Positions 12,502 to 25,615 of a stretch of DNA of 64,000 bases are shown here, piece by piece (position 1 is the stretch's first letter; the number at the start of each line of letters is the position of its first letter). Origin of the DNA: Streptacidiphilus pinicola. Its GTDB lineage: Bacteria > Actinomycetota > Actinomycetes > Streptomycetales > Streptomycetaceae. Both the position numbers and the translations under genes were made by a program. The notes under the pieces were generated by a model. That model made no database searches and was not told where the DNA came from. It saw nothing but the letters and a program-made list of their open reading frames with translations. The DNA is taken from contig NZ_QKYN01000037.1 in NCBI RefSeq assembly GCF_003258295.1, positions 1 to 64,000 on the forward strand. The letters run 5' to 3'.

Positions 12502-13262
12502 GCAAATCCCTCCTTCTTCTCCGAGCACAGCCGCGCAGGCTCGTCGCTCTACGCAATCAGTTAGCTACGCTCCGTTGCGAGCGAGCATATGGTGATCACC
12601 GCCGGTTTTCCCGCCGCGCATCCGGTCGTCCTGACCGAGGCGCCGCGTGGGCGGCTCGTCCCTCCGGCATAAGCGGTCGTCGCGGGGCGCCGACTCGGCC
12701 ACCGAACAGGGGCCTTTCGACGACGTGCGGGAGCCACCTCGCCAAGCGCGGTGGCATCCTGGCCGGCGCTTCTGGAAGCCGAACGCGACACAGCATCTTT
12801 GTCCTTTTGCCGCACGTGAGTTGGAACCCGGCCGGTCGGACGCGACTCGGGATTCGCGGGTGCGCCGCGGGACCCGTGCGGGAGCCTGGGGAGCACTCCT
12901 CACTCACCGGTTCGCGCGGACGCCGCAAGAAGGGCGGCCGCCGGTTCCACCGACCTACCGGAGCGCGAAATCCAGGTCGGCATCCGGGCGACGGCGCTCG
13001 GCGAATACGGCCACCGCGTGCTCACGACTCCCCAGTTGATTGATCCCTGGTCAGAACCGCTCCGCCCCGTGGCGATGTCAGCAAGTGCAGGTCAAAGGCG
13101 GCGGGTATAGCGTGGTGACGGGCCGATCTGTGGACCGCGAAGGAGGCTTGGGACAGGTTACGGAAGTCGCGTACCCGTCTGCATGCGGCTGCGCCGGCCC
13201 CCGCCACGCCGCGACGTTCTCGTCGGCCTCTGGCCTGCCGAAGGGGCCGGGGAGGTGCGGTC
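12502..13262. other. 761-base stretch without a convincing gene
   Basis: Several overlapping open frames occur on both strands but are Arg/Pro-rich and look like shadows of GC-rich DNA. The plus frame from 12946 to about 13110 reads more like real protein (LPEREIQVGIRATALGEYGH) but has no start or family match, so it may be the tail of a decayed gene. The right end must hold the promoter of the GGDEF/EAL gene; a GGGGAGG ribosome site precedes GTG 13263. Confidence 0.5.
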
Positions 13263-16200
13263 GTGAGATCTCAACGGCGATCACATCCTTATCTGCTGAC
13301 CGGCTTCGGCCTGTGGGCGGCTCTCCTCATCTGCCTCTACTACGCGTTCTCCAGCCAGCGGCTGATATTCGTGGCCATCGGCCTGAGCGGCGTGTCCGCC
13401 ATTCTGTTGGGCGTCGCCGTCAACCGGCCGGCCGGCCGCTTGCCGTGGCTGCTTCTCGCCGCCGCGAATCTCAGCTTCGCGGCCGGGGAGTTCGCCCAGA
13501 TCGTGCTCATCCAGTTCCTGCACGAGAACCCGTTCCCCTCGACGGCGGACGCCTTCTACCTGGCCACCTACGTCCTGTACGCGGCAGGGCTGCTCGGCTT
13601 CGTCCGGTGGCGTTCGGCCCGGCGGGACCGCGCCAGCTTCGTCGACGCGCTGACGCTGACCGTCGGCCTGGCCCTGCTCTGCTGGATCTATGTGATCGTT
13701 CCCTACGCGCACACCGCCGGACTGACGTGGCTCCAGAAGGCCATCACCATCGCCTATCCACTGGGGGACATCCTGGTACTGGCGGTGCTGCTGCGTCTGC
13801 TGGCTCCGCGCGGCGGCAAGAGCGTCTCCGTGGTGCTGCTCACCGTAGGTACCCTGGGCCTGCTCGCCTCCGACATCGCTTACGCGCTGATCCAGCTGTA
13901 CGGCACGTGGCGGACCGGCACCGTGGTCGATCTGGGCTGGGCCGTCTTCTACACCGCCTGGGGCGCAGCCGCCCTGCACCCGTCGATGGTGACGCTGACG
14001 CAGCCCGTCGCGGTGAAGCCGGAGACTGGCCGGGGGCGACTGGGTCTGCTCACCCTCGCCTCTTTGATCGCGCCCGGCATGCTGCTGCTGGCCGCCGCCC
14101 GCGGCGACACCAGGAACGCCGGCGTGATCGGAGCCTTCTCCGCCGTCCTGTTCTTCCTCGTGCTCTACCGGCTCTCCGGGGTGGCGGCCACACACCGCCA
14201 GTCGGTGACCCGCGAGCAGGTGCTGCGGGTCGCGGTGGCGGAGCTCGGTCAGGCGACGTCGCCTTCCGATGTCGCCACGGCCGTCCACGCCGCCACGATC
14301 GCCCTGCTCAGCGGTTCCGGCCAGGAGGCCGTGTTCACGGCCAGGGATGAGGCCGGCGTCTGGCTGTCCAGGGCGACACGCGTCGAATTCGAGCAGTCGG
14401 CACCTCTGGCGGGCCCGGCATTGTGCGCGCTGGTCGGAGACGGCCGTCCACGCCAGTTGGCCTCCGACCGTCTGCCGGAGCCGCTCGTGGCCCAAGTGCC
14501 GCGTCGGCGAAGCGCGCTGGTCTGCCCGATCGCCTTGCCTGAGGCGGATGCGGAGGATCCCGTCATCGGTGCGCTGGTCGTGGTCGGGGACGAGCGGGAA
14601 CTGCTGGTGCTCCACGACAGTCTGGTGACCCTCACCACCCAGGCCGCGCAGGCCCTGCAACGCATCCTGCTCAGCCACGAGGTCAGCAAGCGCAACAGCG
14701 AGGCGTACTTCAGGACCCTGGTGCAGAACGCGTCGGACGTCGTCCTCATCCTCGACGACGACCGGATCCGGTACGCGAGCCCGTCGGCCGACCAGGTGCT
14801 GGGCTCGCCCACGCTGGCCGGGAGCCGCCTGACCGACCTGGTCCCGCCGCAGGAGAGCCGCGCGGTGGTCCGCGCTCTGGATCAGATGCGGGAGCCGGAG
14901 TTCCAGGGTCGCCGGGTGCACTGGCGCATGCTGCGGGCCGACCAGACCACGATCGAGGTCGAGGTCCGCTGCAGCGATCTGCGGGAGGACCCGACCGTGG
15001 GCGGGCTGGTGCTGACCCTGCGCGATGTGACCGAGCAACGCAAGCTCGAGCGGGAGCTGACCCACCGGGCCTTCCACGACCCGCTGACCGGTCTGGCGAA
15101 CCGGGTGCTGTTCGAGGAGCGCATCTCCCACGCGCTGACGCAGAGCCAGCGCGCCGGGAGGGTGGTCGGCGTTCTCTTCGTCGACGTGGACGACTTCAAG
15201 GTTGTTAACGACGTACAAGGTCACGCGGTCGGCGACGAGCTCCTGGTCGCTCTGTCGCTGCGTCTGTCGACCACCGTCCGTGCCTCCGACACGGCCGCGC
15301 GGATCGGCGGGGACGAGTTCGCCCTGCTCGTCGAGGACCCGATGACCCCCGAGGACGTGGAGACCTTCGCGGACCACGTCCTCGAGGTCTTCGCGGAGCC
15401 CTTCCGGCTCAGCGTGGGGATGGTGAGTGTCTATGCGAGCGTAGGCATCGCGACCACGGAGGACAGCTTCGACGCGGTGGAGCTGCTGGCCCACGCGGAT
15501 CTCGCGCTGTACGAGGCGAAGACGGCCGGCAAGCGCCAGTGGCGCCGCTACCACCCCGCCCTGCAGAGCGGCATGGTGGAGCGGCACGCACTGCAGGAGA
15601 GCCTGGACCGGGCGGAGATCGAGTCGTTCAAGGTCGTCTACCAGGCCATCGTGGAACTCGGCTCGGGGCGGGTCGCCGGGTTCGAGGCGCTGCTTCGCTG
15701 GCCGCACTCCACCCGGGGCATGGTGATGCCGGAGCAGTTCATCCCGCTCGCGGAGGAGAGCGGGCAGATCGTGCCCCTGGGCAGCTGGGTGCTCGTGCAG
15801 GCGTCCAAGGAGGCCGTCGCGTGGCACGCGATGCTCACCGAGCGGAACCCGGGGCCGCCCGGCGTTGCCCTCGGCGCCAAACTGCCGTACGTGAGCGTGA
15901 ACGTCTCGCCGCGGCAGTTCCGGGATCGCAGCTTCTTCGAGGTGATGCAGTGGTCCTTGGACCGCAGCGGCATCGACCCGTCCAGCCTGGTGCTGGAGCT
16001 GACGGAGGGTCTGCTGCTGCGGCGGGACGACCGCGTCCTCAAGGAGATGCGGGCCCTGACCGAGCTGGGCATCCGGATCGCGATCGACGACTTCGGAACG
16101 GGCTACTCGTCGCTGAGCTACCTGCGCGAGTTCCCGATCTCGATCCTCAAGATCGACAAGTCCTTCATCGACGAGCTCGGCCACTCACCCCAGCAGTACG

Positions 16201-16412
16201 CCCTGGTCGAGGGGATCACGCATCTGGCCGACACCCTCGGCATGAAGGTGATCGCCGAGGGCGTGGAGAACACCACGCAGCGGGACCTGCTGATCTCGAT
16301 GGGCTGCCCGCTCGGTCAGGGCTTCCTGTTCTCCCGGCCACTGGACTCCGAGTCGGCACAGTCACTCCTGCTGGCCGAGTCGTCCGGGATCCCGACACAC
16401 GGCACGTTGTGA
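13263..16412 (+). CDS. membrane GGDEF-EAL cyclic-di-GMP protein
   Basis: This 1049-residue protein has about nine hydrophobic helices in residues 1-300 (LLTGFGLWAALLICLYYAF onwards). A GAF-like region follows at about 315-470, then a PAS domain near 480-590 (FRTLVQNASDVVLILDDD). The GGDEF domain has an intact RIGGDEFALL motif near residue 680, and the EAL domain has EALLRW near 807, DDFGTGYSSLSYL, KIDKSFI and AEGVEN. Both catalytic signatures look complete, so it could make and degrade cyclic-di-GMP. GTG 13263 follows GGAGG. It ends 17 bases before the synthetase gene, so the two are probably co-transcribed. The ligand sensed by the N-terminal membrane part is unknown. Confidence 0.95.
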   Translation: MRSQRRSHPYLLTGFGLWAALLICLYYAFSSQRLIFVAIGLSGVSAILLGVAVNRPAGRLPWLLLAAANLSFAAGEFAQIVLIQFLHENPFPSTADAFYLATYVLYAAGLLGFVRWRSARRDRASFVDALTLTVGLALLCWIYVIVPYAHTAGLTWLQKAITIAYPLGDILVLAVLLRLLAPRGGKSVSVVLLTVGTLGLLASDIAYALIQLYGTWRTGTVVDLGWAVFYTAWGAAALHPSMVTLTQPVAVKPETGRGRLGLLTLASLIAPGMLLLAAARGDTRNAGVIGAFSAVLFFLVLYRLSGVAATHRQSVTREQVLRVAVAELGQATSPSDVATAVHAATIALLSGSGQEAVFTARDEAGVWLSRATRVEFEQSAPLAGPALCALVGDGRPRQLASDRLPEPLVAQVPRRRSALVCPIALPEADAEDPVIGALVVVGDERELLVLHDSLVTLTTQAAQALQRILLSHEVSKRNSEAYFRTLVQNASDVVLILDDDRIRYASPSADQVLGSPTLAGSRLTDLVPPQESRAVVRALDQMREPEFQGRRVHWRMLRADQTTIEVEVRCSDLREDPTVGGLVLTLRDVTEQRKLERELTHRAFHDPLTGLANRVLFEERISHALTQSQRAGRVVGVLFVDVDDFKVVNDVQGHAVGDELLVALSLRLSTTVRASDTAARIGGDEFALLVEDPMTPEDVETFADHVLEVFAEPFRLSVGMVSVYASVGIATTEDSFDAVELLAHADLALYEAKTAGKRQWRRYHPALQSGMVERHALQESLDRAEIESFKVVYQAIVELGSGRVAGFEALLRWPHSTRGMVMPEQFIPLAEESGQIVPLGSWVLVQASKEAVAWHAMLTERNPGPPGVALGAKLPYVSVNVSPRQFRDRSFFEVMQWSLDRSGIDPSSLVLELTEGLLLRRDDRVLKEMRALTELGIRIAIDDFGTGYSSLSYLREFPISILKIDKSFIDELGHSPQQYALVEGITHLADTLGMKVIAEGVENTTQRDLLISMGCPLGQGFLFSRPLDSESAQSLLLAESSGIPTHGTL

Positions 16413-16429
16413 CACCTGGAGGTCCCAAG

Positions 16430-19400
16430 GTGACGGAAGAGCAGCCCTTCGATGACCGCCGCGAGGCGCATGTCCTGCTGCGCGACGACGGAACGCACCG
16501 CGCCGTGTGGCCGGCGCACCTGCCCCTGCCGGAAGGCTGGCAGCAGGTCGGCGAGGACGCCCCGTCAGCCGCCGACTGCGCCGCCGCCCTCCGCGGGGAG
16601 CAGGCCAGGTCGCCGCTCGGCCGTCGGGTCGCCGACGAGGACGGGGCCCGCGCGCCGGCCCGGCCCGGCAACGCTGCGACGGTGTCCGCGACGATCCGGG
16701 CACTCGCGCGGTCCTGCCCGCAGGCACCCGCCGTGCTGTGCGAGGACGCCGAACTCGACTACCGGGAGCTGGACGAGCGCGCCGACCGTCTCGCCGACCG
16801 ACTGCGCGCCCGCGGCGTTCGGCCGGACGCGGTGGTGGCGGTGTGCCTGGACCGGACGCCCGATCTGGTCGTCTCGCTCCTCGCGGTGCAGCGGGCCGGC
16901 TCCGCCTTCCTCCCGCTCGACCCCGCCGCGCCCCCGCAGCGGCTGACCCGGCTCGCCACCGACGTCCGCGCCACACATGTCCTGACGAACCGCCGGCACG
17001 CCCCGCTGTTCGCGGCGCTGTCCGCGGATGCCGCGGAACGGTCCGACCCCGGGGCCGAGGGCTTGCCCTCGGTCGTCGCCGTGGAGGATCTGCTCGCCGA
17101 TCCGGCGGATGTCGGGGACCCCTCGGACCGGCCGTCGCACGACCCCGATCCTGACGGTCTGGCCTACGTCATCTACACCTCCGGGTCGACCGGACCGCCG
17201 AAAGGGATCGCGGTCACCCACCGGGCCCTGGCCGGCTCCCTGTCGGCGGCGGCGGACTACTACGGCCTGGGCGCGGGAGACCGGGTGCTCCACCTGGCCG
17301 CGCTCGGCTTCGACACCTCACTCGAGCAGATCTTCGCACCGCTCACCGCGGGAGCCGCCGTGGTGCTGACCGGCGAACAGGTGTGGGCGCCCACCGAACT
17401 TCTGCGGGGCGTCCCCGAACACGGCGTCACGGTCATCGACCTCACCCCCGCGTACTGGCGTCGACTGCTCGATCTGCTGGGCCCGGGCCAGGAGCGGCTC
17501 ACCTCGGTGCGCCTGGTCATCCTGGGCGGCGAGATCGTGCATGCGAAGGACTGCGAGGCCTGGCTCCGGCATTTCCCCGGCACCAGGCTGGTGAACGCGT
17601 ACGGCCTGACCGAGACGACCATCACCTCGACGGCGGGCGACCTCACCGAGCAGGTCCTCACCGCGCCGGGCGGTGCGCCCGCGCCGGTGGGCCGCGCGCT
17701 TCGGGGCTCGCAGGTCCATGTCCTCGATCCGCAGCTGCGCCCCGTGGCGCCCGGCGAGCGCGGTGAGGTCTACGTCGGCGGGTCCCACCTGGCCGAAGGC
17801 ATCTGGGACCGGCCCGACCTGACCGCCCTGCAGTTCCTGCCGGACCCCTACGCCGGCATTCCGGGAGCGCGGATGTACCGCACGGGCGACACCGGGCGTT
17901 GGCGTGCGGACGGAAACCTGGAGATCCTCGGCCGGGTCGACGACCAGGTCAAGATCCGCGGGTTCAGGATCGACCCGGCGGAGATCGAGAGCGTGCTGCG
18001 CTCCCAGCCGGGCGTGGTCCAGGCGGTGGTGACGGTACGCCCCGCCCGCCAGGGCGGTGACACGGAGTTGGCGGCCTTCTACACGCTCGCAGGAGGCCCC
18101 TCGGCGCAACTGGACCCCTCGCCCGAGCGGCTGCGCTCGGCGTTGGCGGACGTCCTGCCCGGCTACATGGTCCCGGCGGTGTTCACCGCGCTGCCGCAGC
18201 TGCCGCTGACCCCGAACGGCAAGATCGACCGCAAGTCCCTGCCGCACGCCGAACCGGTCCTGGTCTCCGTCCAGGGGCGACCGGCGCTGCCGCCCACCCC
18301 CGTACACGCGGGGATGGCCGAGCTGTGGGGGCGGATCCTGGACGTGCCGCAGATCGAGGCCGAGGACGACTTCTTCGAGCTCGGTGGGAACTCCCTGCTG
18401 GCGATGGAGATGCTGGCCCGCGCGAGGATCATGTTCGGCATCGACATCGACCAGACCCGCGAGCTGGCCCGGTCCCTGCTCCACCACTCCACTCTCTCCG
18501 CCTTCGCGGAATGCGCGCGGCAGGCCCGGGCGGGCACCCTGGCCGAGGCCGAGCACGTCGTGACGGACTTCGCCGCCGAATCCCAGCTGCTCCTCAGTTG
18601 GAGCCGCAGCGAGGCTCGGCCGCCGATCTGGCAACAGCCGGCCGACGTGCTGCTCAGCGGCGCCACCGGCCTGTGCGGCTCGCACATGCTCGCCCACCTG
18701 CTGGAGCACAGCCGGGCACGGGTCCACTGCCTGGTCCGGGCGGCGGACGCGGAGCAGGCGTGGGAGCGCATCCGGGCCGCCCACCAGCGGTACCTGCGGC
18801 ACGACCTGGACGTCGACCTGCGCGACGAGCGAATCCTGCCGATCGTAAGCGACCTGAGCCGTCCCCGGTTCGGGCTCCCCCAAGGCACCTTCACCCGCCT
18901 CGGGGACACCGTCGACGTCATCTACCACTTCGGCGGCCTGGTCAACTTCATCTACCCGTACCAGGATCTGCGGGCCGTCAACGTCGACTCCGTCCGCGAG
19001 ATGGTACGCCTGGCCGCGCCGCGGTCCGTCCCCCTGCACTACACCTCCAGCATGGCGGTCTTCGCCGGCTTCGGTCCGGCCGGCGTCCGGACGGTCAGCG
19101 AGGACACGCCGCTGCACTACGCCGACTACCTGTCGGTCGGATACGTGGAGACCAAGTGGGTGGCCGAGGCGATGCTGCAGCAAGCCGCCCGGGAAGGCGT
19201 TCCGGTGGTCGTGTACCGGCTCCAGGACGTCACCGGGTCGACCAGTACCGGCGTCCTCAACACCTCCACCGAGATCTGCGCGCTGATCAGGTTCATGGCC
19301 GACACCGGTCGCTGCCCGGCCGTCGACCTCCCCCTCGACTTCCTTCCGGCGGACGTCTTCGCGCAGGCCGTCGGGCACATCTCCACGACCCGCCCGGCCC

Positions 19401-20569
19401 GTGGCGGCGTCTACCACCTGACCAACCCGAGGCCGGCGCTGGTGAGTTCGCTTGCCGACTGCCTGCGGTTGCGGGGCTATCCGGTCGAGCTGGTCCCCTA
19501 CGCCACCTGGGTCGCCGACCTGGTCCAGTTCGCGGCCGGCCATCCCACACATCCCATGACGCCGTTCGTGCCCTTGTTCGTGGACCGGTGCAACGGAGCC
19601 GATCTCACCGTCAGCGAGATGTACCTGCAGAACGTCTTCCCGGCGTTCACCCGGGTCAAGGCCGAACGGGCCCTGCTCGACAGCGGGGTCGAGATCCCGC
19701 CGGTGGACCTGCGCATGCTCGACAGCTATGTGGACTTCCTCCAGTCGGAGGGGTACCTCGAGCCGCCGCGCGGTCCGGTCCACGGGCGGCAGCACGTCGG
19801 CTGGGCCGAGATCGACCTGTCCCAGGCCGCCCGGGAAGGGCCGGTGGCGTTCGGTGGCGAACTCGGTCCCGACCAGCTCATGGCGGCCTACAGGGCGGGG
19901 GCCTTTCCGATCCCCGTCACCGACGACGCCAGCCGTGCCCGTCAACAGGCAAGCTGCGCCGAGGGTGTGGCGGCCGGCAGGATCCCGTTCGCCGGGCCCC
20001 GCACCGGCGATCCCTGGGCGGTCGCCTGGTGGTCGCCGGATCCGAGACCGGTCCTGCCCCCTGCCGAGGTGCACCTCAGTCGCAGACTCGCGCGGCGCCT
20101 GCGCAACCGGCTGCAGTGGACGACCACCGTGGACCGTGACTTCGAAACGGTCGTCCGGTCCTGCCGCGACGGGCGGGATCCGGTGTGGCTGACCGACGAC
20201 CTGGTCCGCAGCCTGGTGCGCCTGCATGAAGCCGGCCGGGCGCACAGCGTCGAAGTCTGGGACGGCGAGCAGCTGATCGGCGGCGTGTTCGGGGTTCGGC
20301 TCGGCCGGGTGTTCAGCCTCGACTCGATGTTCGGCCGTCAGGTCGGCGCCGCTCAGGTCGCGGTGGCGGATCTGGCGCGGCGGTTCGCGCAGGCCGGCGG
20401 GGCCGTACTGGACGCCCAGTGGGACAGCCCGCATGTGCGGGCGATGGGTGCTGTCCTGCTGCCCCGGGCCCGGTACCTCGCGCTGTTGCGGGACCGCACC
20501 GGCCCGGAACTGCCGCTGCCGGCCGGGGTCGAGAAGGCCGCGCGGCTGGTGTCGGAGCCGATCTCCTGA
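16430..20569 (+). CDS. MbtH-A-T-R-Aat fusion peptide synthetase (tRNA-dependent)
   Basis: The 1379-residue product starts at GTG 16430, with GGAGG 7 bases upstream. Domains in order: (1) MbtH-like, residues ~5-60 (PFDD, then VWP and PEGW); (2) adenylation, ~80-600, with YTSGSTGPPKG, NAYGLTETT, YRTGDTGRW and NGKIDRKSLP cores; (3) carrier, ~630-720, Ser in FFELGGNSLLA near 654; (4) thioester reductase, ~735-1110, GATGLCG and catalytic YVETK; (5) leucyl/phenylalanyl-tRNA-protein transferase, ~1140-1345, with AWWSPDPRPVL, HEAGRAHSVEVWDG and SLDSMF blocks. No condensation domain exists. I infer that the tRNA transferase domain adds Leu/Phe to the carrier-bound residue and the reductase releases an aldehyde. 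The A-domain pocket, aligned by eye, reads D-T-E-D-I-G-A-I-T, whose acidic residues hint at a basic substrate. Confidence 0.9.
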   Translation: MTEEQPFDDRREAHVLLRDDGTHRAVWPAHLPLPEGWQQVGEDAPSAADCAAALRGEQARSPLGRRVADEDGARAPARPGNAATVSATIRALARSCPQAPAVLCEDAELDYRELDERADRLADRLRARGVRPDAVVAVCLDRTPDLVVSLLAVQRAGSAFLPLDPAAPPQRLTRLATDVRATHVLTNRRHAPLFAALSADAAERSDPGAEGLPSVVAVEDLLADPADVGDPSDRPSHDPDPDGLAYVIYTSGSTGPPKGIAVTHRALAGSLSAAADYYGLGAGDRVLHLAALGFDTSLEQIFAPLTAGAAVVLTGEQVWAPTELLRGVPEHGVTVIDLTPAYWRRLLDLLGPGQERLTSVRLVILGGEIVHAKDCEAWLRHFPGTRLVNAYGLTETTITSTAGDLTEQVLTAPGGAPAPVGRALRGSQVHVLDPQLRPVAPGERGEVYVGGSHLAEGIWDRPDLTALQFLPDPYAGIPGARMYRTGDTGRWRADGNLEILGRVDDQVKIRGFRIDPAEIESVLRSQPGVVQAVVTVRPARQGGDTELAAFYTLAGGPSAQLDPSPERLRSALADVLPGYMVPAVFTALPQLPLTPNGKIDRKSLPHAEPVLVSVQGRPALPPTPVHAGMAELWGRILDVPQIEAEDDFFELGGNSLLAMEMLARARIMFGIDIDQTRELARSLLHHSTLSAFAECARQARAGTLAEAEHVVTDFAAESQLLLSWSRSEARPPIWQQPADVLLSGATGLCGSHMLAHLLEHSRARVHCLVRAADAEQAWERIRAAHQRYLRHDLDVDLRDERILPIVSDLSRPRFGLPQGTFTRLGDTVDVIYHFGGLVNFIYPYQDLRAVNVDSVREMVRLAAPRSVPLHYTSSMAVFAGFGPAGVRTVSEDTPLHYADYLSVGYVETKWVAEAMLQQAAREGVPVVVYRLQDVTGSTSTGVLNTSTEICALIRFMADTGRCPAVDLPLDFLPADVFAQAVGHISTTRPARGGVYHLTNPRPALVSSLADCLRLRGYPVELVPYATWVADLVQFAAGHPTHPMTPFVPLFVDRCNGADLTVSEMYLQNVFPAFTRVKAERALLDSGVEIPPVDLRMLDSYVDFLQSEGYLEPPRGPVHGRQHVGWAEIDLSQAAREGPVAFGGELGPDQLMAAYRAGAFPIPVTDDASRARQQASCAEGVAAGRIPFAGPRTGDPWAVAWWSPDPRPVLPPAEVHLSRRLARRLRNRLQWTTTVDRDFETVVRSCRDGRDPVWLTDDLVRSLVRLHEAGRAHSVEVWDGEQLIGGVFGVRLGRVFSLDSMFGRQVGAAQVAVADLARRFAQAGGAVLDAQWDSPHVRAMGAVLLPRARYLALLRDRTGPELPLPAGVEKAARLVSEPIS

Positions 20570-20628
20570 CCGCCTGCGCGGGAGCCGTCACACCACCGGG
20601 AGGTGCGCCCGCCACCGGAGGCCGGCAC

Positions 20629-22098
20629 TCACCGCGCATCCTCGTCGCCCGTGTCCACGGTGAAGCCGCGCCGGCTCATGGCACCCCAGACCTGCGGGGC
20701 TCCGCGCAGGGCGTCCCACATGCCGCGGACCCGCCACCAAGCCGTGAACTGGCGGTAGCCGATGTTCTCGGCCAGCGCCCCCACGAGTGCGCCGCCCAGG
20801 TCGCGCCAGCGGGGGTACCGGTGGAACGCGTACTCCTCGGCGACGAGGGCGGCCAGGCTGACGACCATGGCGTAGCCGTAGGCGACGAGCAGGAAGCGCC
20901 ACAGGAACGTCAGGTCGACGGCGCCCAGCAGGAGCCCGAGCGGCACCAGGACCAGGCCGGAGAGTTCGACCACGGGGGCCAGCAGCTCGAACAGCACGTA
21001 GAATGGGAGCGCCAGCATGCCGACCCGGCCGTAGCGGCGGTTGCCGATCAGGCGCCGGTGTTTGAGCAGGATCTCGGTGAGGCCGCGATGCCAGCGCCGA
21101 CGCTGCCGACCGAGGATCAGCGGGGTCTCCGGCGCCTCGCTCCACGAGATCGGCTCGCCCACGAAGACGATCCGGTAGTCGCGGTGGTGCTCACGCTGGT
21201 GCCGGTGGAGTCGGACGACCAGTTCCGCGTCCTCGCCCAGACAGTCCGGGTCCATGCCGCCGATCGCGACCACGGCGTCCCGGCGGAAGAGCCCGAAGGC
21301 CCCCGCGATCACCAGCAGTCCGCCGACGCGGGACCAGCCCGTCCGGCCGAGCAGGAAGGCGCGCAGGTACTCGACCGTCTGGATCCTGGCGAGCAGGCGT
21401 TGCGGCATCCGGACCTGCGCGATGCGTCCTGCCAGCACGGTGCAGCCGTTGGCGACGCCGACGACCCCGCCCGCCGCCACCACGTGCAGGGGGTCGTCGG
21501 CGAAGGGCTTGGCGATGGCGAGCAGCGCCTGCGGGTCGAGGATCGAGTCCGCGTCGACCATGCAGAGCAGCGGATAACGGGCGAGGTCGATTCCGAGGTT
21601 GAGGGCGTCCGCCTTGCCGCCGTTGCGCTTGCGGGCGACCAGCAGCGGTACGGCCCCGCCCCGCGGCAGGTGGACCGACTCCACCTCGCCTCGCGCGGTC
21701 ACCTCGCCGGGGACCACGTACGGCACCTCGGTCAGGTCGAACGCCTCGGTCAGCCGTTCCAAGGTGGCGTCCGTCGAGCCGTCGTCGACGACGATCACTT
21801 CGAAGCTGGGGTAGCGGAGCAGCAGCATCGCCTCCACTGCGGAGACGATGCCGGCCTCCTCGTTGTGCGCGGGCACGATCACCGAGACGGGCAGGGTGAA
21901 CGGGCTTGCCGCGATGTCGTCGTAGCCCGCGAACGGCGCTCGGCGCAGATGGCGCGCGAAGTCGCCTGCGGCGATCAGGACCAGGACGAGGTAGGCGGTG
22001 TTGATGGCGAGGAAGTAGCCCAGGATGGCGGCGTCGGTGACGTGGATGACCTGGATCAGGACCTCGTGCCCCGGCACCGGGAACAGTGCGCCCCTCAC
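20629..22098 (-). CDS. membrane family 2 glycosyltransferase (polysaccharide synthase)
   Basis: This 489-residue processive GT2 resembles the hyaluronan/PNAG/cellulose synthase group. An N-terminal membrane helix precedes the catalytic domain VSVIVPAHNEEAGIV, VVDDGSTD, MVDADS, the GEDAELV acceptor-base motif and QRRRW. Three or four C-terminal membrane helices follow (LPFYVLFELLAPVVELSGLVL and others). The start is GTG 22098, overlapping the HEAT gene stop by 4 bases; the longer open frame upstream is a shadow. The polymer is unknown. Position in an operon with a response regulator, and opposite a cyclic-di-GMP gene, fits a regulated exopolysaccharide synthase. Confidence 0.9.
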   Translation of the reverse strand: MRGALFPVPGHEVLIQVIHVTDAAILGYFLAINTAYLVLVLIAAGDFARHLRRAPFAGYDDIAASPFTLPVSVIVPAHNEEAGIVSAVEAMLLLRYPSFEVIVVDDGSTDATLERLTEAFDLTEVPYVVPGEVTARGEVESVHLPRGGAVPLLVARKRNGGKADALNLGIDLARYPLLCMVDADSILDPQALLAIAKPFADDPLHVVAAGGVVGVANGCTVLAGRIAQVRMPQRLLARIQTVEYLRAFLLGRTGWSRVGGLLVIAGAFGLFRRDAVVAIGGMDPDCLGEDAELVVRLHRHQREHHRDYRIVFVGEPISWSEAPETPLILGRQRRRWHRGLTEILLKHRRLIGNRRYGRVGMLALPFYVLFELLAPVVELSGLVLVPLGLLLGAVDLTFLWRFLLVAYGYAMVVSLAALVAEEYAFHRYPRWRDLGGALVGALAENIGYRQFTAWWRVRGMWDALRGAPQVWGAMSRRGFTVDTGDEDAR

Positions 22099-23201
22099 GT
22101 CTCCACCGTCGGGTCCCCGGCCGGGCGTGCCCTGCCCTTGCTGATCGCGGCCTGGGCGAGCGCCGCGCCGGCCTGTCTGGCGGCCCGATCGCCGTGGATG
22201 CCCCCAAGAACGCGGCGCAGCTCCCACTCGCCCCCCTGGCCGAGCCGCGCCATGGAACGGGCCGCGGTGGCCGCCACGCGCGGAACCGGGTCGCCGAGCA
22301 GTTCCCCGAGCCGCCCGGCCACACCTGGGTCGCCGAGGCGACCCAGCGAGCCGGCCGCCACGGCGCGCAGGCTCTCGGGCCGATCCGGGCCCAGGGCGTC
22401 GAGCAGCGGTTCCAGGGCCTGCGGCGCACCGAGGGATCCGAGGGCGCGGGCTGCCCTGATCTGTACCTCGGGATGGGGGTCGGTGGTCAGGGCGAGGGCG
22501 ATCCTCGGCGCCCAGGCGGTCGCGCCCACGGCACCCAGGACCTCGACGGCGACGGCCCGCACCAGTGGCTGCGAGGCGTCGAGGCCTTCCGCGACCAGGG
22601 GTTGGCTGTCCGGACCGAGAGCGGTCAGCGCCAGCACCACCACCGACGGCGGAACCGCGAAGCGCCCGTGGAGCGCACCGAGGAGGGCGGGCACAGCGGA
22701 GGCGTCCCCCATCCGTCCCAGGGCCCTGGCCGCCACCACCCGCAGGTCGGGGTCCGCGTCGCGCAGCAGCGGCAGCAACGCCCCCACCGCCGCCTGATGA
22801 CGCAACTGGCCCAGGGTCTCGGCGGCTCGTGCGCGCCGGATCCGGCCCTCTCGCCCCAGGTCCGACATGGCCCGTTCGGCGAGTCCGCGCCGCTCGAAGA
22901 GCTCGACGAGCGAGCTCGACGCCTGACCGGTCACCTTGCCGAGGAAGACCTGGGCGACCGGCTCCAGCGCGGTCCAGCTGTGGTCGTCCAACTCGGCCAG
23001 CGTGTCGAGGATGCCGGCCCTCTCGTCGTCCTCGGCGCACAGGAGCGCGAGCAACCGGGCACGGTGGGGCTCGGCGGCCCGCTCCGCGCGGACCTGCCGG
23101 ACCTGACGCCGGACGCGCAGACCGACCAGAACGGCCAGCAGCACCGCGCCCGCCACGGCGAGCACCCCCGCGGCCACGTCGAGCAGTCCGAGGGAGCTCA
23201 T
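22095..23201 (-). CDS. membrane-anchored HEAT-repeat protein
   Basis: This 368-residue protein has one N-terminal membrane helix (LLDVAAGVLAVAGAVLLAVLVGL) followed by a basic linker. About eight HEAT/PBS-lyase-type helical repeats follow, e.g. RRARAAETLGQLRHQAAVGA, DLRVVAARALGRMGDASAVP and VQIRAARALGSLGAPQALEP. Such repeats form a scaffold for protein contacts; no enzymatic motif is seen. Its start overlaps the response-regulator stop (ATGA) and its stop overlaps the glycosyltransferase start. This suggests a membrane scaffold linking signal input to the synthase. Confidence 0.85.
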   Translation of the reverse strand: MSSLGLLDVAAGVLAVAGAVLLAVLVGLRVRRQVRQVRAERAAEPHRARLLALLCAEDDERAGILDTLAELDDHSWTALEPVAQVFLGKVTGQASSSLVELFERRGLAERAMSDLGREGRIRRARAAETLGQLRHQAAVGALLPLLRDADPDLRVVAARALGRMGDASAVPALLGALHGRFAVPPSVVVLALTALGPDSQPLVAEGLDASQPLVRAVAVEVLGAVGATAWAPRIALALTTDPHPEVQIRAARALGSLGAPQALEPLLDALGPDRPESLRAVAAGSLGRLGDPGVAGRLGELLGDPVPRVAATAARSMARLGQGGEWELRRVLGGIHGDRAARQAGAALAQAAISKGRARPAGDPTVET

Positions 23202-23572
23202 CGGGCGAGCCTCGCGAGCACGGCCTCGACCCGGCTGATGAGCTCGCGAGGGCTGAAAGGCTTGACGATGTAGTCGTCGGCGCCTGCCGCGAAGCCCGTC
23301 TCGACGTCGGCCTCCTGGGAACGCGCGGTCAGCAGGATCACCGGCAGGGCTCTTGTCGCCGCGTCGGCCCGCAGTTCGCGGCAGACATCCAGGCCGGACA
23401 TCCCCGGCATCCTGACGTCGAGGAGCACGAGGTCCACGTGGTGTTCGCGGACCGACTTGAGGGCGGCCAGCCCGTTCTCGGCGGCGATCACGTCGTGGCC
23501 CGCGTGGGTGAGTTTGTAGGACACCAGATTGCGGATGTCGATGTCGTCATCGGCCACCAGGACGGCTGCCAT
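23198..23572 (-). CDS. single-domain response regulator
   Basis: The 124-residue receiver domain has all key residues: acidic pair VADDD, phosphoacceptor Asp in LVLLDVRMPG (near residue 53), LLTARS with the switch Thr, and KPF with the conserved Lys. There is no output domain. ATG 23572 follows a strong AAAGGAGGGGG site; the longer frame upstream is non-coding. It heads the regulator-HEAT-GT2 operon. A cognate kinase is not adjacent; the hybrid kinase at 45.8 kb is too far away to assign. Confidence 0.93.
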   Translation of the reverse strand: MAAVLVADDDIDIRNLVSYKLTHAGHDVIAAENGLAALKSVREHHVDLVLLDVRMPGMSGLDVCRELRADAATRALPVILLTARSQEADVETGFAAGADDYIVKPFSPRELISRVEAVLARLAR

Positions 23573-24052: not shown

Positions 24053-25615
24053 TCATCCGTGCAACCGATTCGGGCGGGACGGCGCGGCCGCCCGCGCCCC
24101 GTCGAACGGGACCCACCCGCCTGCCTGGAGGACGCCGGCCACAGCACCTCGGCCCAGGGTGAAGCGGTAGAGGGTGGGCGGGGCGAAGCCCAGCCGTGGT
24201 TGCTGAAGAGACGCGGCCCGCTGGTCGTAACCCGCCGCCAGCGCGGTCCACAGCGCTGTCGCGACGCCGGTTCCGCCCGCCGTCCGCCACCGGCCGTCGG
24301 CGTGGACCACCGGCCCCCGCACGACCCGCGCTGTCACGTCCGGGACCTCGCGCCGCCCATAGGGATCGACTCCAACCCAACGCGCCTGCCACCAGGGCTG
24401 CGCGAAGACCGCGGACCGACCGCGCCCGCTCTCGGTGCCGCCAGTCGCGGCGTCGTCCGCGGCTCCCACCGCTGTCACATGGGGGTCCGATGCGGGGAAG
24501 AGCACACCGCCGCCGGAGTCGTCTGATGCTTCGGAACCGTGATCCGCCGGGGCGTAGAAGCCGACTCCTTCCGCCGCGCCCTCCTCCAGGACCAGATCGA
24601 TCGCCCGCATGCCACTCCCCGTCCGCTGTTCCTCGGGGGCGCCCCATCCGGTCATCGCCACCGGGATGCCGGCGTCGATAACGCTCTGCCAGGCGTCGAC
24701 CTCTCCCGCCGCGCTGTTCTCGGCGGAGAACACCACCGTCGCGGTGTCCGGTGCCACCGCCTGGACTGTCTCGATCTCGGCCTCGACCGCTGCACGGCCG
24801 GCGTCCCCGTCGACCGGCCCTCCGTCGACCAGTCGCAGTTCCGGCGCGGGCGACGCCAGGGCGAACCGGCGGTCGTACGCGGCGACGTCCTGCGGGCGGA
24901 AGCCCGCGAACTCCGCGAGGGCCACCCGTGGTCGCGGCCCGCTGCGATCCCCCCGGGTGTTCGACACGGAGCCCTGGGCGTCGCGGAGCTGAGCGGGCGT
25001 CAGGCCGTCGGCCCCGCCGAAGCTCACAGTCGGCCGGCGCACGGCGCGATCGGTCAGACCGGCGATGTCCGCGACGAGATACCCCGGGTCCGCCGGGAGC
25101 TCCGGGGGCGTGGCGTTGCCGTAGAACACACGGCCGGAGGCGGGATCGCGCCAGGTGTCCAGACGGATCCCGAGGGTCCGCTCCACATCGGCCGCGCTCG
25201 CGGAGGCGTCCACCACGAGGCGGCCGGAGTGGACGTCGTCGATGTGGAAGCCGTTGCCCTCGAGGTAGGCGCGCAGACGCTCGATCTCGGCGACCGTGCG
25301 GCCGTAGCGGGCGGCAAACTGGCTTCCCCGCAGGTACTGCCGGTAGCGGGGCGAGTCGGGGTCGTCGACCTCGGCGACGTAGGTGTCCAGGTCCGCCCTG
25401 TCCCGTGCGGCCAGCGTGAAGGCGAGCCGAAGGTAGGCGCGGTGAGGCAGGTGCCCCAGATGCTGAGCTCGGCCGGTTCCGGGAAGCACGTCGTCCCGCA
25501 GGACACGGGGCGGCGCGGTGAGCTCCGCGGCGTGGGCCGCCGGCAGGACGGCGGACAGCGCCACGAGAACGGCGAAGGCACCGGCCTTGAGTCGCGCGAC
25601 GGGGCGCAGGCGCAC
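24053..25615 (-). CDS. S53 (sedolisin/kumamolisin)-like protein, catalytic Ser missing
   Basis: This 520-residue secreted protein has a signal peptide (LKAGAFAVLVALSAVLPAAHA) and starts at GTG 25615 with GGGAGGAA 5 bases upstream. A pro-peptide of the Pro-kuma_activ type is evident (YLRLAFTLAARDRADLDTYV; RYRQYLRGSQFAARYG). The catalytic part aligns by eye with S53: the EIETVQAVAPDTA strand, the oxyanion Asp in YAPADHG, and FPASDPHVTAVG. The nucleophile motif SGTS/GGTS reads GGTG, so the Ser is Gly. The Glu/Asp pair upstream also appears altered (Ala and Glu). It is therefore probably an inactive homologue with a binding or inhibitory role. Confidence 0.8.
   Translation of the reverse strand: MRLRPVARLKAGAFAVLVALSAVLPAAHAAELTAPPRVLRDDVLPGTGRAQHLGHLPHRAYLRLAFTLAARDRADLDTYVAEVDDPDSPRYRQYLRGSQFAARYGRTVAEIERLRAYLEGNGFHIDDVHSGRLVVDASASAADVERTLGIRLDTWRDPASGRVFYGNATPPELPADPGYLVADIAGLTDRAVRRPTVSFGGADGLTPAQLRDAQGSVSNTRGDRSGPRPRVALAEFAGFRPQDVAAYDRRFALASPAPELRLVDGGPVDGDAGRAAVEAEIETVQAVAPDTATVVFSAENSAAGEVDAWQSVIDAGIPVAMTGWGAPEEQRTGSGMRAIDLVLEEGAAEGVGFYAPADHGSEASDDSGGGVLFPASDPHVTAVGAADDAATGGTESGRGRSAVFAQPWWQARWVGVDPYGRREVPDVTARVVRGPVVHADGRWRTAGGTGVATALWTALAAGYDQRAASLQQPRLGFAPPTLYRFTLGRGAVAGVLQAGGWVPFDGARAAAPSRPNRLHG

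Follow-up and report, generated by a model that had tools for sequence, protein, structure and literature searches.

A single-chain, probably livipeptin-type synthetase with a fused leucyl/phenylalanyl-tRNA transferase part and a membrane GGDEF-EAL partner gene in Streptacidiphilus pinicola

How might a nonribosomal peptide synthetase (NRPS) without a condensation (C) domain form a peptide bond, and what is its product for? These questions are raised by a stretch of 64,000 nucleotides of Streptacidiphilus pinicola (contig NZ_QKYN01000037.1, positions 1 to 64,000; the window), in which a single gene at 16430–20569 (+ strand) encodes MbtH-like, adenylation (A), peptidyl carrier protein (PCP), thioester reductase (R) and leucyl/phenylalanyl-tRNA (L/F) transferase, or Aat, parts in one chain of 1379 amino acids. 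The fused architecture is real, and the synthetase is almost always accompanied by a gene for a membrane GGDEF-EAL protein, here called GE, which can also exist without the synthetase. This partner gene is more surprising than the fusion. An earlier note on the same DNA, made from the sequence alone, had set the locus at 16430–20569, which is right for the synthetase frame but leaves outside the most conserved partner, the GE gene at 13263–16412. We hold with moderate confidence that the locus encodes a self-contained synthetase of the livipeptin type that draws on tRNA and releases a peptide aldehyde; it would join Arg with Leu or Phe, give rise to a pyrazinone and be tied to cyclic di-GMP (c-di-GMP).

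The reading frame of the synthetase runs unbroken from the GTG at 16430 to the TGA at 20569, and a GGAGG resembling a ribosome-binding site, read by eye, lies 7 bases 5' of the GTG (16418–16422, +). The MbtH-like domain at the N-terminus (residues 5–47; 16442–16570, +) is matched by the Pfam model PF03621 at 8e-7 and 28.8 bits, the cut-off being 27, and contains WP and PxGW; its C-terminal side is short, and the rest of the typical MbtH C-terminal part is not recognisable. Next comes the A domain (residues 93–598; 16706–18223, +), with Pfam matches to the AMP-binding domain at 93–459 (3e-81) and to its C-terminal domain at 518–598, followed by the PCP (PP-binding in Pfam, residues 630–694; 18317–18511, +) with the motif FFELGGNSLL and the thioester reductase (residues 740–1110; 18647–19759, +), which is matched by NAD_binding_4 at 742–981 in Pfam and by TIGR01746 at 740–1110. 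Both TIGR01746 and the adenylation model TIGR01733 score above their curated cut-offs. The motifs YTSGSTGPPKG and NGKIDRK of the A domain, GGNS of the carrier and GATGLCGSH and YVETK of the reductase are legible in the translation, and those of the reductase were also checked across the R domains of relatives. No C domain is found among the Pfam matches of the 1379-aa protein. Open frame, Pfam and TIGRFAM bear out the domain content and order given for one chain in the earlier note, as well as the lack of a C domain.

An A-PCP-R synthetase without a C domain, encoded together with (here fused to) an L/F-transferase homologue, is the arrangement of the livipeptin-type C-minus NRPSs, which were published in 2023 with translational fusions included (PMC10548850). 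The lead to a Streptomyces lividans system that pairs an Aat homologue with a synthetase was correct, and the system in question is that of livipeptin (PMC10548850). That no single-chain form with MbtH was known stands in so far as MbtH, like GGDEF and c-di-GMP, does not occur in the main text of PMC10548850, and falls in so far as fusions of an NRPS with an L/F transferase were already in print. N-terminal fusions of MbtH to a synthetase are known as well, 4gr4 and 4gr5 being among the matches of the MbtH part. The kind of system is hence already known, and the arrangement is new as a variant: MbtH and a fused Aat, no acetyltransferase found, and a fixed c-di-GMP partner.

The Aat part was delimited at 19811–20566 (+), its start having been set by eye against Escherichia coli Aat, and contains a Leu_Phe_trans match at residues 1197–1343 (5e-44; 20018–20458). 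It matches three E. coli Aat sequences in the PDB (2cxa, 2dps and 2z3k) at about 2e-34, and the predicted model of residues 1160–1379 (pLDDT 88) matches E. coli Aat structures with query-normalised TM-scores of 0.65–0.68 and E-values down to 3e-18. The check on the Aat fold proposed in the earlier note, which had the chain end in an Aat-type transferase, is thus passed in the model. Lower in the list of structural matches come Sbb17 (ranks 10 and 11) and Sba18 (rank 16), both peptide synthases that depend on aminoacyl-tRNA. Asp186 and Gln188 of E. coli, which we take to be catalytic, are kept in 60/60 of the GE-linked Aats that have a residue there, the alignment being gapped in 1 of 61. Domain match, predicted fold and these two residues together indicate membership of the Aat family.

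The relatives of this locus were collected from 394 genomes of one bacterial family. PF03588 is matched in 68 of them, leaving 326 without an Aat match, and its 76 matches, with two genes in two pieces each, correspond to 74 loci (73 stretches plus the window), at which A, R and GE were located by tblastn with the window's own domains as queries. A and R adjoin Aat on the same strand at 62/74 loci. In 56 of these 62, synthetase and transferase are split, with aat just downstream and a 4-bp overlap in 30 of the 52 loci in which both genes were called. The remaining 6/62 (the window, L047, L048, L049, L052 and L053), all from Streptacidiphilus, have R and Aat in one frame. Since the same open R-Aat junction is present at five other loci from four further genomes, the fusion is not an accident of assembly, and an artefact is ruled out by six fused loci from five genomes. 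In a tree of Aat sequences (74 rows including E. coli, with the broken L114 omitted), the six fused forms group together with support of 100/98, next to the split pair L050/L051 from Streptacidiphilus (88/78 where the two meet). The simplest reading of these sequences is a single fusion in which aat was joined to its upstream gene. The R-Aat order, called unexpected in the earlier note, retains the order that the two genes have in the split relatives, now read as a single frame, and we reject it as a mechanistic oddity. The W..GW core of MbtH lies upstream of A in 55/60 GE-linked synthetases besides the window, the five others being L052 (masked bases), L081 (a stop there) and L082, L088 and L114 (Trp replaced). 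In an alignment of the MbtH-A region, 29 of 55 rows were usable. Because the split relatives already have an MbtH-like N-terminus, the MbtH fusion predates the Aat fusion. Over the whole protein, close relatives are found in Streptacidiphilus melanogenes (two loci), Streptacidiphilus neutrinimicus and Kitasatospora indigofera.

The census also bears on whether the Aat part might still be an N-degron transferase that is merely tethered to the chain, with A-PCP-R acting alone as an amino-acid reductase. The fused Aat part is the single PF03588 match in the host assembly (8.43 Mb, 281 contigs), so any N-end-rule activity must come from it; yet Aat is dispensable, as the 326/394 family genomes without a match indicate, 62/74 Aat loci adjoin an A-R synthetase, the pocket differs family-wide from that of E. 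coli, and synthetase and transferase cooperate in the published reconstitution (PMC10548850). We regard a tethered N-degron transferase as very improbable.

Several other Aat genes were seen during this work. At L114, L115, L081, L082, L088, L089 and L103, synthetase or Aat genes are apparently broken, shifted or uncalled (Aat lies in two frames in L114), and some copies may therefore be decaying. L065, L066 and L087 have neither R nor GE, and their Aat lies close to a C-A-PCP synthetase in which Pfam, run on L065 only, matches a TubC docking domain; an MbtH-like gene is called in L065 and L066, beside this other Aat-NRPS pairing. At L106, L109, L112 and L113, Aat lies near other NRPS genes with an A code starting DAWF(L/M)G, unlike the Arg-like code described below. 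A class-wide Aat search gave matches in 180/394 genomes, among them G729, outside the family, whose Aat match of only 2.3e-40 falls in the NRPS-linked range and is weaker than nearly all other outside-family matches listed.

The GE gene (13263–16412, +) encodes a protein of 1049 aa and stops 17 bp upstream of the synthetase start on the same strand. Its PAS, GGDEF and EAL domains are matched by Pfam, and its predicted architecture is 10TM-GAF-PAS-GGDEF-EAL (TM, transmembrane helix). The sensor part (13263–14696, +), as judged from motifs, a predicted model and Foldseek, would consist of about 10 transmembrane helices and a GAF-like domain: the model has 10 long helices followed by the GAF-like domain, while a Foldseek search gave no match at E <= 0.001, GAF folds coming first at 0.003 and worse. 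The GGDEF domain (15069–15536, +) has an RxxD I-site and the GGDEF motif, and the EAL domain (15594–16340, +) has intact catalytic motifs. GGDEF, RxxD and FEAL(V/L/I)RW are each present in 61/61 GE-linked rows, window included, and by its motifs GE is predicted to be a bifunctional GGDEF-EAL enzyme. We rejected the phosphodiesterase RmdB as an identity for GE, since RmdB is a 6TM-GGDEF-EAL protein present in at least 91/93 strains (PMC6205966), whereas the GE sensor is matched in 107/394 genomes.

GE adjoins the synthetase in 61/62 A-R-Aat loci, divergently in 50 and co-directionally in 11, the sole A-R-Aat locus without it being L054. It is present at 0/12 of the remaining Aat loci within the stretches examined, of which L102 is cut by a contig end. 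On another contig of the L102 genome (L129), GE lies beside a divergent A-PCP-R synthetase that runs into the contig end, and L129 and L102 probably represent pieces of a further linked locus, not counted in the 61. With only 5 EAL matches in the genome of the window, adjacency by chance is very unlikely, though the 61 loci come from related genomes. Distances between GE proteins correlate with those between R domains (r = 0.92) and Aats (0.89), with 0/2000 permutations as high, in a Mantel test on 60/61 loci in which shared descent inflates the correlation. In a GE tree (quick method, midpoint-rooted), all 61 fall in one clade of 67 rows (SH-aLRT 100), the other six being L129, L128 (GE alone on a 3.6-kb contig) and four Kitasatospora copies, L123–L126. 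The GE-linked Aats form no clean clade in the Aat tree: L092 groups with L065, L066 and L087, the Aats of L054 and L102 fall among the GE-linked ones, and long branches lead to L111 and others. More distant GE-like genes without a synthetase are L127 and L130–L139, and the called frames of L130, L131 and L132, which lie away from a synthetase, are much longer (1489–1520 aa).

What might the synthetase make? With positions assumed to follow GrsA numbering, the A code reads D T E D (I/V/L) G A (I/V) T in 61/61 GE-linked rows. The window's own code, DTEDIGAIT, is common to the livipeptin-like locus L054, where the last six letters come from the alignment and the first three were picked out by eye from a different reading frame (the A domain at L054:6500–8200 is split over two reading frames, by a frameshift or sequence error). 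At two pocket places Glu and Asp stand here against Glu and Ser in the A1 domain of ApnA (4d4g), which we take to activate Arg or Tyr. The A domain would thus take a basic amino acid, most likely Arg. In the mechanism that we propose, the A domain, assisted by the MbtH part at the N-terminus, would activate this amino acid and load it onto the carrier Ser. L/F transferases accept N-terminal Arg or Lys, so that carrier-bound Arg would be a ready acceptor: Arg-S-PCP would mimic the N-terminal Arg that is their usual acceptor, which would explain the possible replacement of the C domain. The C-terminal Aat part would then do the work of a C domain by passing Leu or Phe from tRNA to the free amino group of the carrier-bound Arg, after which reduction with NAD(P)H by the R domain would set the dipeptide free as an aldehyde. 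As no conserved N-acetyltransferase gene lies beside this branch, the amine would be free to attack the aldehyde, giving a dihydropyrazinone and, upon oxidation, a Leu-Arg or Phe-Arg pyrazinone of the arglecin type. We infer that the product is a Leu/Phe-Arg aldehyde with a free amine, prone to closure into such a pyrazinone. For arglecin and argvalin, it is proposed that a terminal (Arg or Phe) aldehyde closes spontaneously with the amine of the neighbouring residue and is then oxidised (PMC11212599), and most pyrazinones are described as dipeptides that cyclise on release (PMC12144821).

The dependence on tRNA is supported by the characterised livipeptin relative. Livipeptin is produced by Streptomyces lividans 66 from Sli0883–0885 (BGC0001168), in which the transferase is encoded separately; activity requires the NRPS, the L/F transferase and the N-acetyltransferase Sli0885, and RNase abolishes it (PMC10548850). 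Arg is predicted for the A domains throughout the published set, which lists homologues in Streptacidiphilus (6) and Kitasatospora (3), and the structure of livipeptin is described as unsolved (PMC10548850). Within the census, L054 has a livipeptin-like gene order: the synthetase and transferase genes are followed by one for a protein of 257 aa, whose GNAT match is weak (E 0.03, below cut-off), and by genes for an O-methyltransferase and an acyl-CoA dehydrogenase. By sequence, two branches are apparent, with predicted chemistry that is common up to the aldehyde and with different surroundings. The window belongs to the c-di-GMP-linked branch, which has no PF00583 acetyltransferase nearby.

Several points weigh against our reading of the product and its role, and the first concerns acetylation. 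Omission of the acetyltransferase removed the inhibitory activity of the livipeptin system (PMC10548850), and the unacetylated branch may therefore make something else. Should an acetyltransferase elsewhere in the genome act on it, the product could instead be livipeptin, a protease inhibitor of the N-acyl Leu/Phe-argininal kind, and the GGDEF-EAL gene would only tune expression. The A code identical to that of L054, the domain set shared with the published system (PMC10548850) and 94 PF00583 matches elsewhere in the genome speak for this; on the other hand, the L054-type neighbours (GNAT, O-methyltransferase and acyl-CoA dehydrogenase) are not annotated beside the window's synthetase. No such gene set was found there in Pfam scans of the neighbours, with PF00583 or with the L054 GNAT, and the latter has only chance-level matches (E 0.95 and worse) at the other census loci and in the window. 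PF00583, the one acetyltransferase family searched, has no match within the window, the nearest on the contig being at 164171. We consider livipeptin an unlikely product of this locus.

The second point concerns the substrates. The assignment of Arg rests on code similarity, and in the Aats Glu156 of E. coli is replaced by Asp in 60/60 GE-linked and 11/13 other sequences, while Trp49 is kept in 0/61 and 0/13, respectively, in this alignment. The transferred amino acid may thus differ from Leu or Phe, the donor choice of Aat having shifted. An A domain that takes Lys, Orn, homoarginine or a similar basic or guanidino amino acid, together with an Aat that uses another aminoacyl-tRNA and hence an unknown dipeptide aldehyde or heterocycle, would agree with these pocket differences and with two acidic pocket residues that suit any basic side chain. 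The closeness of the A pocket region to that of ApnA A1 argues for Arg instead, as do the Arg predictions reported for relatives (PMC10548850), and we give such other substrates a low probability.

The third point concerns the role of GE. L123–L126 have a GE of the same clade with no R or Aat within the surrounding 20 kb, and BldD boxes, sought upstream of 58 loci with what we take to be the consensus, occur with <=1 mismatch in 2 cases against about 2.6 expected, so that no enrichment, and no direct control through c-di-GMP and BldD, is visible. GE could be a passenger, co-inherited in one genome clade without functional coupling: besides these two findings, the census covers one family, its 61 linked loci come from related genomes and are not independent, and GE-like sensors are more widespread than the synthetase. 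Against a passenger, the adjacency outlasts the changes of orientation and also duplication, for in Streptacidiphilus melanogenes each synthetase copy (L047, L048) has its own GE, the two GEs being placed apart in the GE tree just as the corresponding Aats are in the Aat tree. Also, a 4-bp overlap joins GE to the synthetase in L050 and L051, and other neighbours are not kept, the commonest family besides GE, synthetase and Aat occurring in 15/61 GE-linked loci (families derived from a home-made gene caller). Mere co-inheritance thus seems to us improbable. In the sensor part, the GEs of L123–L126 resemble the window's GE more closely (60–67%) than do the synthetase-linked GEs of the same genomes (50–55%).

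Because GE accompanies nearly every relative of the synthetase, the gene linkage suggests that the product is tied to cell signalling. The module is inherited with its membrane GGDEF-EAL protein, and the product would probably be made under, or sensed in, c-di-GMP signalling. We tentatively hypothesize, as a possibility that we hold to be less than even, that the tRNA-built dipeptide, whether aldehyde or Leu/Phe-Arg pyrazinone, is the ligand or the output of its own GE and reports the state of translation or of amino acids into c-di-GMP, and hence into development. If so, a c-di-GMP enzyme would have a small-molecule synthetase dedicated to it and inherited along with it. According to PMC6205966, it is unknown which signals streptomycete GGDEF-EAL proteins perceive through their N-terminal domains, and the co-inherited synthetase is a direct and testable candidate source of the signal of GE. 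Literature searches brought up no paper on a conserved link of this chemistry to c-di-GMP, and the main text of PMC10548850 is silent on it. Also, livipeptin-type chemistry and MbtH in one chain could be expressed and tested without partner proteins.

Other genes around the synthetase are less constant. Convergent to it lie, as possible members of the locus within 20629–23572 (-), a family-2 glycosyltransferase (20629–22098), a HEAT-repeat protein (22095–23201) and a single-domain response regulator (23198–23572). The glycosyltransferase is PgaC-like, scoring below the cut-off of that model, and by gene calls its family occurs in 4/61 and that of the response regulator in 5/61 GE-linked loci. 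In L055 and L060, similar glycosyltransferase, HEAT-repeat and response regulator genes come after the synthetase locus, together with one for a histidine kinase (L055:2278–4377). Similar genes also adjoin the synthetase-less GE copy of Kitasatospora L124; genes of about 119–125, 367–369 and 486–504 aa, of matching lengths, lie beside L123–L126, and Pfam gave a partial identification for those of L124 only. The gene at 24053–25615 (-) has a pro-kumamolisin activation domain and no peptidase domain match. A promoter and terminator scan of 12900–20900 found nothing, and a PHROGs search gave one epimerase match and two families of unknown function.

Compared with known systems, the window is most like that of livipeptin, with which it shares a C-minus A-PCP-R synthetase, an L/F transferase replacing the C domain, a predicted Arg and a small gene set. 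The livipeptin cluster, however, has a separate transferase and an N-acetyltransferase, then O-methyltransferase and butyryl-CoA dehydrogenase genes (PMC10548850), whereas the window has one chain with an N-terminal MbtH part, a GGDEF-EAL partner and no acetyltransferase found nearby. The arglecin and argvalin of Streptomyces are alike in the predicted closure of a pyrazinone from a terminal aldehyde, but are presumed to be by-products or breakdown products of antipain-type protease-inhibitor NRPSs and have no gene link to the present system (PMC11212599). E. coli Aat (2cxa, 2dps, 2z3k) is similar in sequence, predicted fold, Asp186 and Gln188, while the Aat here is a C-terminal synthetase domain with Glu156 changed to Asp, Trp49 replaced and a longer stretch before WWSPD. 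In 4gr4/4gr5, which we take to be SlgN1, the MbtH part stands at the start of the synthetase chain as in the window, presumably with neither an R domain nor a tRNA-dependent transferase. GE, in turn, resembles the CdgF/CdgC-type proteins of Streptomyces in membrane architecture and has intact GGDEF and EAL domains as in CdgF, a 10TM-PAS-PAC-GGDEF-EAL protein that is described as possibly bifunctional and of unknown signal (PMC6205966). GE differs from these proteins by the GAF-like domain of its model and by its tie to a synthetase.

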